Source: an uncultured Paracoccaceae bacterium
GTDB lineage: Bacteria > Pseudomonadota > Alphaproteobacteria > Rhodobacterales > Rhodobacteraceae
Length of the DNA: 64,000 nucleotides
NCBI GenBank assembly: GCA_937916485.1
Contig: CALFSV010000254.1
Coordinates: 1 to 64,000 of the forward strand
Direction: 5' to 3'
Below the pieces are notes generated by a model. It saw nothing but the letters and a program-made list of their open reading frames with translations, was not told the origin of the DNA and did no database searches. The first letter of the stretch is position 1. Every line of letters begins with the position of its first letter. Positions 47,624 through 51,087 of this stretch are shown here, one piece after another. The position numbers were made by a program, and so were the translations under genes.

Positions 47624-48025
47624 ATGCGCCATCTCAGCCTCGCCCTTGCCACTGCTGTCAGCTGTCTGGCCAGCCCCCTGATCGCTCAGGACACCGACGC
47701 CGGTGCCGCCCTTTACACCCGCTATTGCGCGACCTGCCACGGTGTGACGGCAGAAGGCGATGGGCCAATGTCACCAAGCCTCGTCATCCAGCCACCTGAC
47801 CTGACCGGACTAAGTGCCCGGAACAACGGGGTCTTTCCGGTGGTCCGGGTGGTGATGCGGATCGACGGGCGCGAGCCGCTGGTCAGCCACGGATCGCCCA
47901 TGCCGGTCTACGGCGACTTTTTCGAGGGCGACGATGCGGCGGTCAAGGCCGAGACGGGTCAGCCAATCCTGACCAGCCAGGCGGTGGTGGACCTGATGGC
48001 GTATCTGGAGGGGGTTCAGAAGTAG
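47624..48025 (+). CDS. Mono-haem cytochrome c, periplasmic
   Basis: 133-residue class I cytochrome c with a cleavable signal peptide (HLSLALATAVSCLASPLIAQ), haem site CATCH at about 35-39 and candidate distal Met in GSPMPVYGDF. Same layout as the cytochrome at 46411, with PPDLTGLSARN and RIDG in common, so the two are paralogues, one soluble and one lipid-anchored. Strong ribosome site AGGAGG. An exact FNR box lies upstream. Confidence 0.88.
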   Translation: MRHLSLALATAVSCLASPLIAQDTDAGAALYTRYCATCHGVTAEGDGPMSPSLVIQPPDLTGLSARNNGVFPVVRVVMRIDGREPLVSHGSPMPVYGDFFEGDDAAVKAETGQPILTSQAVVDLMAYLEGVQK

Positions 48026-48108
48026 GGGGAGGGGCGTCCTAGTCGGCACTGTATCCTCAGGCCCCAGAAGGGAGGGAGGCGCGCCGGGTTCATTGCCAAC
48101 TGCACCAT

Positions 48109-49119
48109 TTGCTTGACGTCGAGGGAAATGCGTGGACTGCCTTTTTTGACAGCGGACCTAGCAAGAACATGCAAAAAGTGTTGAAATCTAGACAGATATA
48201 TGGAGAAATAGTTTCTAGGCATTGTTTAGGTGGGGTAGTGGTGTCTACTTTCGAAGTAGGGGGTTCATGTCTTGCCAGAGTCCACAGGATAGAAAACGAC
48301 AGAAAGTGGTATTGCTACTTTACTGGTTTTCTAGAAGGGATTGCCGCCAGTGGTCAGCTTGAGGTAGGCGAAGTAGAGCCGCTATTGGCGCAATGTAGAG
48401 AATTTTTTTCGAACATAGGCGATCCTGATGCCTCTGATTTCATAGAGGATTGCCAACTAGATTTACTGACCCATGAGCAAGTGTTGCTAACTGCAGAAGT
48501 TCGATCCCGGAACATCGACGTTGCTTGCCAAAAGAGCGCAAAGAACCGATTTAATGGATTTTGCGCGGGTATTAGCTGTGATGGAAGCATCACCTTGTCT
48601 GAAGTTGAGACGGCGATTGGAGCTATCTCCCGAAACCCAGAATTATTAAACGATCCTGATGTGCGCGGGCTTAATCAAATTTGCGTCGATGCGATCGCTG
48701 ATGGCATCGTAGATGAAGAAGAACAGTTGGCGATCTGCGACGCAATAAACCAGATCATTGGAGACATCTATTCTGATACTGGGCTGTCAAGTCTCGGGGC
48801 AACGCGAGCATTAGAGTACGAAAGATTTGAGCTAATTTTAGAGAATTTGGAAGGAGCATGCATTGTCTTGACAGGAAACTTTGAAGTATCTCCCCGCCGG
48901 ATATTGGAAGAGAAGCTTTCAGGTATGGGCGCCATAATTGGTCGCACTGTCAGCAAGAAAGTCCACTACGTTCTGGTTGCTGACGAGGCCTCACGAGACT
49001 GGATTGAGACTCACCAGGGTCACAAGATCAAAAAGGCCATGGAACTCAAGCTGAAGTATGGCGCCCCGTCGTTCTTGACAGAAAAAGAAGTTGTTAGGCA
49101 CCTCGGCCTGAACAACTGA
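48109..49119 (+). CDS. AT-rich gene: TerB-like helical region + BRCT domain
   Basis: 336 residues if read from TTG 48109; 316 if from the first in-frame ATG at 48169 (neither has a clear ribosome site). The C-terminal 90 residues (about 247-336) form a LigA-type BRCT domain: GACIVLTGNF, then GMGAIIGRTVSKKVHYVLVAD, ending FLTEKEVVRHLG. The middle (about 60-215) is helical with acidic repeats resembling TerB modules (SGQLEVGEVEPLL, DGSITLSEVETAI, DGIVDEEEQLAI). The gene is markedly richer in A+T and uses AGA, ATA and TTA codons rare in its neighbours, which suggests recent transfer. Role unknown; DNA-damage or phage-related function is only a guess. Confidence 0.75.
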   Translation: MLDVEGNAWTAFFDSGPSKNMQKVLKSRQIYGEIVSRHCLGGVVVSTFEVGGSCLARVHRIENDRKWYCYFTGFLEGIAASGQLEVGEVEPLLAQCREFFSNIGDPDASDFIEDCQLDLLTHEQVLLTAEVRSRNIDVACQKSAKNRFNGFCAGISCDGSITLSEVETAIGAISRNPELLNDPDVRGLNQICVDAIADGIVDEEEQLAICDAINQIIGDIYSDTGLSSLGATRALEYERFELILENLEGACIVLTGNFEVSPRRILEEKLSGMGAIIGRTVSKKVHYVLVADEASRDWIETHQGHKIKKAMELKLKYGAPSFLTEKEVVRHLGLNN

Positions 49120-49128
49120 GGTCTCCCC

Positions 49129-51087
49129 TCAAACATCCAACTCCTCCACAAACCGCGCATTCTCCTGAATGTACTGGAACCGCATTTCCGGTTTCTTGCC
49201 CATCAAACGCTCAACCAGATCGGCGGTTTCGCCCAGGAAATCGTCCTGCAATGACACCCGGATCAGCTTGCGGGTTTCGGGGTTCATGGTGGTGTCCTTG
49301 AGGTCCTTGGCGTCCATCTCGCCCAGACCCTTAAAGCGCTGGACGTCGATCTTGCCCTTGCCGCCAAGGCCCTTTTCCATCCATTTTTCCTTTTCCGCAT
49401 CGTCGGCCACATACATCCGCCGCGCCCCTTGGGTCAGGCGGTAAAGCGGCGGGCAGGCGAGGTAGAGGTGGCCGGTGTCGATCATCGGCCGCATCTGGGT
49501 AAAGAAGAACGTCATCAGAAGCGCCGCGATATGGGCGCCGTCGACGTCGGCGTCGGTCATGATGATGATCTTGTCATAGCGCAGGTTTTCGACGTTGAAA
49601 CGGGTCCCCAGCCCCACCCCCAAAGCCTGCGTCAGGTCCGAGATTTCCTGGTTCGTCGTCAGCTTGCCCGAAGCGGCGCCAAGGACGTTCAGGATCTTGC
49701 CGCGCAGGGGCAACAGCGCCTGCGTCCGGCGGTCCCGCGCCATCTTGGCCGATCCACCGGCCGAGTCGCCCTCGACGATGAAAAGCTCTGTCCCCTCCCG
49801 GTTGGTGGCGGAACAATCGACCAGCTTGCCGGGCAGGCGCAGTTTCTTGGTGGCGGTCTTGCGGGCGGTCTCTTTCTCCATCCGGCGGCGCAGGCGCTCT
49901 TCGGCCCGCAGCACCAGAAAATCGAGGATCGCGCCCGCGGACTTGGGATCGGCAGCGAGCCAGTTGTCAAAGTGGTCGCGCACCGCCCCCTCGACCAGCC
50001 TTTGTGCGTCGGCTGTGGCCAGCCTGTCCTTGGTCTGGCCCACGAACTCCGGCTCGCGGATAAAGCAGGACACAAGGGCGCATCCCCCCGTCGCCAGATC
50101 CTCACGGGTGATGTCGCTGGCCTTGCGGTTCTTGACCAGTTCGCCGTAGGCGCGGATGCCCTTGAGGATGGCGTTCCAGAACCCCGCCTCATGCGTTCCG
50201 CCTTCGGGCGTGGGGACGGTGTTACAATAGGATTGGATGAACCCGTCCCGCGATGGGGTCCAGTTGACCGCCCACTCAACCTTGCCCGGCACCCCGAACT
50301 TCTGGTTGAAGTCGACCGTTCCGGCAAAGGCCTGATCGGCATAGGTGGCCGCGCTTCCCAGCGTCTCCTTGAGGTAGTCGGCCAGACCTCCGGGAAAGTG
50401 GAACACCGCCTCCATCGGCGTATCGCCATCCGCAATCGCCGATTTCCAACGGATTTCGACGCCCGAGAACAGGTAGGCCTTGGACCGGACCATGGTCAGC
50501 AGGCGGGCAGGCCGGAACCGGTGGTGGCCAAAGATTTCCTCGTCGGCATGAAAGGTAAACGTCGTCCCTCGCCGGTTCTGCGTCGACCCGAGGTTCTGGA
50601 TGGGTCCCAGCGGAATTCCTCTCGAGAACCGCTGTTCATACAGCGTCCGGTCGCGCGCCACCTGAACGACAAGGCTGTCGGACAGGGCGTTGACGACCGA
50701 CGCCCCCACCCCGTGCAGACCGCCCGAGGTCTGATAGGCCTTGCCCGAGAATTTGCCCCCCGCATGCAGGGTGCACAGGATCACCTCAAGGGCGGATTTG
50801 TCGGGAAACTTGGGGTGTGGATCAATCGGGATGCCCCGCCCGTTGTCCCGGATGGTGACCGAGTAGTCGGCCAAAAGCTCGACCTCGATCCGCGTGGCGT
50901 GTCCTGCGACCGCCTCGTCCATTGAGTTATCAAGGACTTCGGCCACCAGGTGATGCAGCGCCCGTTCGTCCGTTCCGCCGATATACATGCCGGGGCGCTT
51001 GCGCACCGGTTCAAGGCCCTCAAGGACCTCGATGGAAGAGGCGTTGTAGTCGGAGGGTTCGGCCCCCGCGAGGAGATCGTCGGACAT
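49129..51087 (-). CDS. parE: DNA topoisomerase IV subunit B
   Basis: ATPase subunit that with ParC decatenates daughter chromosomes. 652 residues: GHKL ATPase (EVLDNSMDEAVAG, DNGRGIPIDPHPK, LHGVGASVVNALS), transducer domain, TOPRIM with EGDSAGGSAKMARDR and TDADVDGAHIAALL, and C-terminal GLGEMDAKDLKDTTMNPETR. The CSATNREGTELF region distinguishes it as ParE-like rather than GyrB. Monocistronic on the minus strand; parC is elsewhere. Confidence 0.95.
   Translation of the reverse strand: MSDDLLAGAEPSDYNASSIEVLEGLEPVRKRPGMYIGGTDERALHHLVAEVLDNSMDEAVAGHATRIEVELLADYSVTIRDNGRGIPIDPHPKFPDKSALEVILCTLHAGGKFSGKAYQTSGGLHGVGASVVNALSDSLVVQVARDRTLYEQRFSRGIPLGPIQNLGSTQNRRGTTFTFHADEEIFGHHRFRPARLLTMVRSKAYLFSGVEIRWKSAIADGDTPMEAVFHFPGGLADYLKETLGSAATYADQAFAGTVDFNQKFGVPGKVEWAVNWTPSRDGFIQSYCNTVPTPEGGTHEAGFWNAILKGIRAYGELVKNRKASDITREDLATGGCALVSCFIREPEFVGQTKDRLATADAQRLVEGAVRDHFDNWLAADPKSAGAILDFLVLRAEERLRRRMEKETARKTATKKLRLPGKLVDCSATNREGTELFIVEGDSAGGSAKMARDRRTQALLPLRGKILNVLGAASGKLTTNQEISDLTQALGVGLGTRFNVENLRYDKIIIMTDADVDGAHIAALLMTFFFTQMRPMIDTGHLYLACPPLYRLTQGARRMYVADDAEKEKWMEKGLGGKGKIDVQRFKGLGEMDAKDLKDTTMNPETRKLIRVSLQDDFLGETADLVERLMGKKPEMRFQYIQENARFVEELDV

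Follow-up and report, generated by a model that had tools for sequence, protein, structure and literature searches.

A phage-related BRCT gene at the parE 3' end, an apparent insertion hotspot in Rhodobacteraceae

The window, by which we mean the whole 64,000-nucleotide stretch of DNA analyzed here, contains an open frame at 48109-49119 on the forward strand between a cytochrome c gene that ends at 48025 and parE, with which it is convergent. A preliminary description of the same DNA had placed a gene here and read it as a protein of 336 residues. That start is too early: in most aligned relatives the protein begins with 'MSxFE', which corresponds to GTG 48241 in the window gene, and a Shine-Dalgarno-like AGGTGGGG stands just before this codon, so the likely length is 292 aa. 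The 132 bases ahead of GTG 48241 are most likely an upstream leader; they are missing from most aligned relatives, a few relatives carry unrelated extensions, and a protein 99% identical to the window protein (P0001) is called from a Met at window residue 21. A search of 48000-49200 gave neither a sigma-70-like promoter nor a terminator. The features of the locus are as follows.

48090..49128, unstranded: inserted AT-rich segment adjoining the parE 3' end (left border approximate, from the GC step)
48109..48240, forward strand: in-frame extension from TTG 48109, 132 bases, judged leader and not coding
48228..48235, forward strand: Shine-Dalgarno-like AGGTGGGG, 5 nt upstream of GTG 48241 (read directly)
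48241..49119, forward strand: coding sequence of 292 aa with GTG start, helical domain plus BRCT domain (start by alignment with relatives)
48241..48804, forward strand: N-terminal helical domain, residues 1-188, two similar halves (models, pLDDT 86.6)
48829..49116, forward strand: BRCT domain, residues 197-292, with pocket residues T211, G212, R219, and K262
49129..51087, reverse strand: parE, topoisomerase IV subunit B, a core gene of the host, with the insertion point at its 3' end (open reading frame)
49132..49167, reverse strand: last 36 nt of parE before the stop codon, an attachment-like stretch (comparison of filled and empty sites)

The gene differs sharply in composition from its surroundings. 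Its GC content is 0.473 and its GC3 0.481, compared to GC3 values of 0.72-0.81 in eight neighbors, and it lies 5.8 s.d. below the mean GC of 879-bp windows across the 64 kb. It is the most AT-rich gene-sized stretch in the window, and 48001-49000 is the lowest-GC 1-kb step across the 64 kb. Given the GC3 gap and the distance of 5.8 s.d., the sharp difference in base and codon use from the neighbors, noted in the preliminary description, is a sound observation and no chance dip. On the cytochrome c side, GC in 50-bp steps is 0.62-0.68 up to about 48075 and is down to 0.3-0.5 by about 48175, and the GC change-point falls 1043 bp from the parE stop codon.

The C-terminal part of the protein is a BRCT domain. 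Pfam PF00533 matches the window protein at 23 bits (cut-off 21.3) and is matched by 52 of the 52 aligned family members, and an AlphaFold2 model of the 292-aa protein (mean pLDDT 86.5) predicts a BRCT fold, the outcome on which the preliminary description had staked its BRCT assignment. The nearest solved BRCT domains are those of NAD-dependent DNA ligase (LigA) and RFC1. In BRCT domains with a pocket for a phosphate or DNA end, a T-G follows strand 1, an Arg opens helix 1, and a Lys lies near the start of helix 2. T211, G212, R219, and K262 are invariant in 13 of 13 aligned proteins, three phage proteins included, and the model has helices at 219-228 and 261-273, with R219 at the start of the first and K262 near the start of the second. 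Sequence and model together place the domain in the pocket-bearing subgroup of LigA and RFC1. The window protein shares the fold and the VxTG / R / K pocket with LigA (DnlJ) and RFC1, but it has no ligase or clamp-loader domains; LigA models match the BRCT part only, far below their cut-offs, and no ligase domain was found. A BRCT pocket need not imply DNA-end binding: that of XRCC1 BRCT1 is reported to be used for poly(ADP-ribose), and docked RFC is reported mostly to hide its own. Databases often give relatives the name 'NAD-dependent DNA ligase', among them a number of about 210-430 aa whose listed Pfam domains are BRCT only or none.

These names, and the solved LigA and RFC1 domains as closest structures, would fit a DNA repair accessory, a stand-alone LigA-type BRCT protein that holds nicks or ends for the host ligase. 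We consider such a role improbable given the missing ligase domain, the patchy distribution of the gene, and its location in phages and at a hotspot, both described below.

The N-terminal helical domain carries the conserved motifs CDGxI...E and DGI...E, and G110, D114, E121, E161, and G174 are invariant in 13 of 13 aligned proteins. Its first and second halves show a weak likeness to each other (hhalign P 6e-4, probability 11%). The TerB-like repeats named in the preliminary description are not supported for this two-half helical domain. Pfam TerB (PF05099) was matched by none of 52 members, and DUF533 (PF04391) by two of 52, with a best E of 0.06, short of the cut-off. Profile comparison with hhalign gave E 0.98 against seven TerB sequences and E 0.21 against four DUF533 sequences, both weak tests, since TerB against DUF533 itself scored poorly. 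The N-terminal model had no clear PDB match, and the best 50 Foldseek and best 50 VIA-align rows for it name no TerB chain, which in itself excludes nothing. The TerB identity thus has no backing from Pfam, profile comparison, or fold search. No nuclease or other catalytic motif was recognized in the window protein.

The protein is a member of a broad, uncharacterized, phage-linked BRCT family. An initial protein search returned 55 proteins at E <= 1e-3; seven relatives had a named organism, six of which we take to be Rhodobacteraceae genera or strains, the seventh being given only as 'Pseudomonadota bacterium'. A profile search returned 364 proteins at E <= 1e-6. The best 120 of these, which reach E 1.7e-55 at the weakest, are mostly a 209-218-aa version, the named ones mainly from Pseudomonas; the remainder of the 364 may hold other BRCT proteins. 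The preliminary description knew of no described protein with this layout, which is nevertheless the layout of PHROG 3989. This family is matched by the window protein (E 3.2e-30, positions 90-290 of 296) and by the relative P0002 (E 4.4e-35, positions 6-293 of 296), and on these matches we assign the window protein to PHROG 3989, a described but uncharacterized family. Among candidate defense families, PADLOC PDC-S48 matches the window protein at E 6.7e-5 (274-380 of 411) and P0002 at E 4.1e-12 (227-380 of 411), so that only the C-terminal part of the candidate profile is covered. The second helical half and the BRCT domain are common to both; the PDC-S48 profiles are longer (411 and 512 positions), however, and their N-terminal parts are unmatched by the window protein. 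We found no functional study of this family in the open-licence literature.

Translated searches with tblastn matched 16 phage records, and we inspected six for gene order. In five of the six, the gene adjoins a CI-type repressor; in phage PG1, it lies one gene further away. Vibrio phages K139 and kappa have the order cI-orf2-glo-int, where the annotation assigns glo a part in phage exclusion. Pseudomonas phages Marin, phi1, and phPA-G carry the gene directly after the repressor. K139 orf2 (kappa kp3) resembles the window protein across nearly its full length, as a small stand-alone phage gene with a helical part and a C-terminal BRCT domain, but identity is 26-27%, and the window gene stands alone beside parE. 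Two plasmids also matched, one with metabolic and regulatory neighbors and the other with a site-specific integrase two genes away; no phage repressor is annotated beside the gene in either plasmid. A search of viral contigs with the family alignment found one locus, L063.

The position beside a repressor raises the strongest rival to the account of function we favor below, namely, that the gene is a prophage lysis-lysogeny regulator whose BRCT domain senses broken or nicked DNA and which acts with the CI repressor, the copy at parE being a domesticated leftover or a trans regulator of prophages. A 2026 preprint (PMC13345283) notes BRCT genes in lysis-lysogeny modules of roseobacter prophages that replace quorum-sensing regulators, and takes them to be DNA-damage regulators; its statement is an inference from annotation. 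No repressor or other phage gene was recognized by eye beside the parE copy in the window, L064, or L065, nor at the lone chromosomal sites L067 to L069 of more distant relatives. We regard a regulator of this kind, which predicts a phenotype in prophage induction, as rather unlikely.

The gene is rare among genomes. At E <= 1e-12, the family sample of 394 genomes contains nine with a match, of which two match over the C-terminal part only; at E <= 1e-15, the phylum sample of 299 contains eight. Judging by the relatives that carry a name and by how similar the cytochrome and ParE are, the sampled family is probably Rhodobacteraceae. In G613 and G375, the gene lies directly 3' of parE and convergent with it, as in the window. 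These two copies, 48% and 45% identical to the window protein, are much closer than the other seven (E 2.8e-136 or better, versus 3.8e-84 or weaker), and a search of 166 relatives of G613 gave five matches, all already known. The remaining seven of the nine matched genomes have no parE in the fetched neighborhood. Five of those relatives were compared with the DNA around them: four are richer in AT, and L070 is host-like (GC 0.65 v 0.63). The preliminary description would have yielded to homologs that were core genes with the base composition of their hosts: the gene is not core, but one of the five relatives does have such a composition. Distant relatives also occur as AT-richer lone genes amid host-like genes in three other places (L067:8555-9490, L068:8620-9600, and L069:180-1085).

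We compared 96 parE flanks, comprising 80 chosen blind to the content of the site, 13 reached through the cytochrome gene, and three with the BRCT gene (window, L064, and L065). In the family sample, 368 of 394 genomes have a parE match at E <= 1e-250, and the 80 come from the part of these whose parE positions were listed. The content-blind set consists of 60 minus-strand parE genes with contig room and 20 plus-strand genes (large coordinates or contig continuing); the choice was non-random and blind to what the parE site holds, with at least one suitable minus-strand site (G581) passed over and seven others already in the cytochrome-chosen set. Of 20 flanks picked by the cytochrome gene, 13 had parE within 8 kb. 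We called sites filled or empty by a GC change-point threshold, which misjudged some (L114 and L109 look partly filled).

By this threshold, 49 of the 96 sites are filled: 35 of 80 content-blind flanks, 11 of 13 reached through the cytochrome gene, and all three with the BRCT gene. The AT-rich inserts begin at the parE stop codon, are 499 to 1508 bp long (median 900, 49 filled sites), and usually hold one gene. Counting outward from the parE stop codon in 250-bp bins, GC was at least 0.10 under the local mean in 52, 48, 45, 20, 7, and 6 of 94 flanks, and in 0-2 of 94 in each of the next ten bins, which serve as an internal control. On this comparison of sequences, the parE 3' end in Rhodobacteraceae appears as a hotspot at which AT-rich segments, mostly of a single gene, are inserted. 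The hotspot is a stronger and more surprising result than the BRCT gene itself, and we found no description of it in the open-licence literature. The preliminary description's transferred, stand-alone, phage-related gene is upheld: the gene is AT-rich, patchy, found beside phage CI repressors, and located in this hotspot.

Only three parE sites (the window and two genomes) carry the BRCT gene, and given their 45-62% identity, they may go back to a single old insertion followed by losses. An old resident of the parE flank, inherited vertically, lost in most genomes, and odd in composition for other reasons, would likewise explain why the two parE-linked copies are the closest by far in the genome sample and hold the same position. 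Against such a resident stand the GC3 gap to the neighbors, the presence of the gene at parE in only two of 394 sampled genomes, and the many unrelated AT-rich genes at the same spot elsewhere; we judge it very unlikely.

Among the 49 filled sites, 40 hold one open reading frame, five hold two, and four hold none. When the resulting 50 open reading frames, 36 in the direction of parE and 14 opposite, were compared by blastp, 21 fell into eight groups of two to four and 29 had no match to the others. The groups are the three BRCT proteins; L100/L104/L123/L165; L116/L128/L177; L118/L169/L180; and four pairs, L139/L163, L150/L155, L095/L143, and L097/L115. We ran domain scans on 42 of the 50, having dropped five of less than 110 aa and, by hand, three more (L167, L087, and the second open reading frame of L139). 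At E <= 0.01, Pfam matches among the 42 include AbiTii (1), AbiU2 (2), HEPN (3), RelA_SpoT (2), HNH_2 (2), the McrB-like MrcB_N (1), and DUF488 (1). PADLOC matches at the same cut-off include PDC-S48 (3), PDC-S33 (2), HNH (2), and AbiTii, PD-T4-10, PD-T7-4, PDC-M19, and others; the three PDC-S48 occupants (best E 2.3e-10) are presumably the BRCT proteins.

It is our impression that defense genes are enriched among the occupants, the counts being per family and without a control set of other inserts. The presence of defense-type occupants at the same spot in other genomes also speaks against the prophage regulator described above. Apart from this, a recurrent family of about 168 aa occupies L100:6422-6928, L104:3941-4447, L123:3952-4488, and L165:314-796, the first three 54-67% identical; at E <= 0.01, neither Pfam nor PADLOC matches its L104 member. 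L139:3844-4482 and L163:307-930 encode proteins that are 67% identical, share an N-terminal 'NCPFDxxF', and presumably resemble TIR-like or deoxyribosyltransferase-like proteins.

Judged from sequence, the BRCT gene is foreign, patchy, phage-related, and placed where relatives hold other AT-rich inserts, several of which belong to known or candidate defense families. Phage lysogeny operons and spots shared with Abi-type genes are usual places for anti-phage genes, which makes an anti-phage or exclusion account the most economical. We give about even chances to the reading that the gene travels as hotspot cargo and, as a single gene, provides anti-phage defense or superinfection exclusion through a protein that recognizes phosphorylated ends of DNA. 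In such a protein, the BRCT pocket (T-G / R / K) would bind phosphorylated 5' ends of DNA, nicks, or intermediates of replication, or else a phosphorylated partner (phosphopeptide), and the duplicated helical domain would then oligomerize or recruit the effect that stops an invading phage. This effector step is the least certain, since no catalytic motif was recognized. The pocket is conserved across bacteria and phages, which makes a role in DNA-end sensing directly testable.

The end of parE itself differs between filled and empty sites. In the window, 49132-49149 (the last 18 nt of parE) is identical to GTKGAGGAGYTGGATGTT, with 0 mismatches. At least 17 of 18 positions match GTKGAGGAGYTGGATGTT in 44 of 49 filled sites versus 11 of 47 empty sites (Mann-Whitney p 7e-13) and, with content-blind flanks only, in 31 of 35 versus 10 of 45 (p 1e-10); the motif was taken from the filled sites themselves, and the counts carry no correction for kinship among the genomes. 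When the consensus of all 96 sites was used instead, the last 18 nt still differed between filled and empty sites (p 5e-11), the preceding 18 nt differed less (p 1e-4), and there was no difference further, to -180. A terminal GATGTT is present in 38 of 49 filled sites versus 9 of 47 empty sites. GC content of the parE end is 0.59 in both groups, and the conserved end is therefore not a matter of host codon bias. Immediately past the last sense codon the sequences diverge, and even the stop codon varies. No exact match to the parE-end motif was found in viral contigs.

Conservative site-specific recombination, which would repeat the parE end at the insert's far border, was rejected after searches by weight matrix, 15-mer, and longest exact match gave no convincing copy there. 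In favor of such a copy, reverse-complement weight-matrix scores were above shuffles (mean -12.0 v -16.6; forward -15.5), as were 15-mer scores (reverse-complement 8.37 v 7.64 shuffled; forward 7.96), but the best places are scattered over some 500 bases. The longest exact copy of a site's own parE end averaged 5.41, compared to 5.50 in shuffles; the window has a 9-base copy of an empty-site parE end (CTCGACGTC) 35 bases from the change-point. According to PMC11406308, type I-F3 CAST elements such as Tn7017 target parE via TniQ, and insertion next to parE is what they have in common with the segments described here. The segments differ from Tn7-like and CAST elements in their size of 0.5-1.5 kb, in the absence of a transposase by eye among the 50 occupant open reading frames (of 80 aa or more), and in terminal repeats no better than shuffles: with borders taken from the GC step in 49 inserts, inverted repeats scored 9.57 v 9.53 shuffled (14-mer) and direct repeats 9.57 v 9.36. 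On these counts, the inserts do not fit a Tn7-like element at parE.

Our tentative reading, for which we would put the chances somewhat below even, is that the last ~36 nt of parE are an attachment site for undescribed integrase-less cassettes, where a trans factor places small, AT-rich, mostly single-gene cassettes with many defense genes among them, the BRCT gene belonging to one of at least eight recurrent families. If true, each genome would hold an exchangeable defense gene exactly at the parE stop codon. The parE 3' end offers a simple address for collecting uncharacterized, possibly defensive genes of a whole bacterial family, and the hotspot raises the question of what places 1-kb genes at parE when they bring no integrase with them.

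Of the 49 filled sites, 22 have a GC-rich palindrome (GCGCCCGACC...GGTCGGGCGC) close to the far border of the insert, and 5 of the 47 empty sites have it at up to 300 bp from parE; a stricter hairpin search gave few and was not used. In the window, the palindrome is not near the border, and half-sites with one mismatch or fewer occur 18 times in the 64 kb. It is found in L104, L120, L126, and others, at offsets of 589-655, 710-770, and 966-1023 from the parE stop codon.
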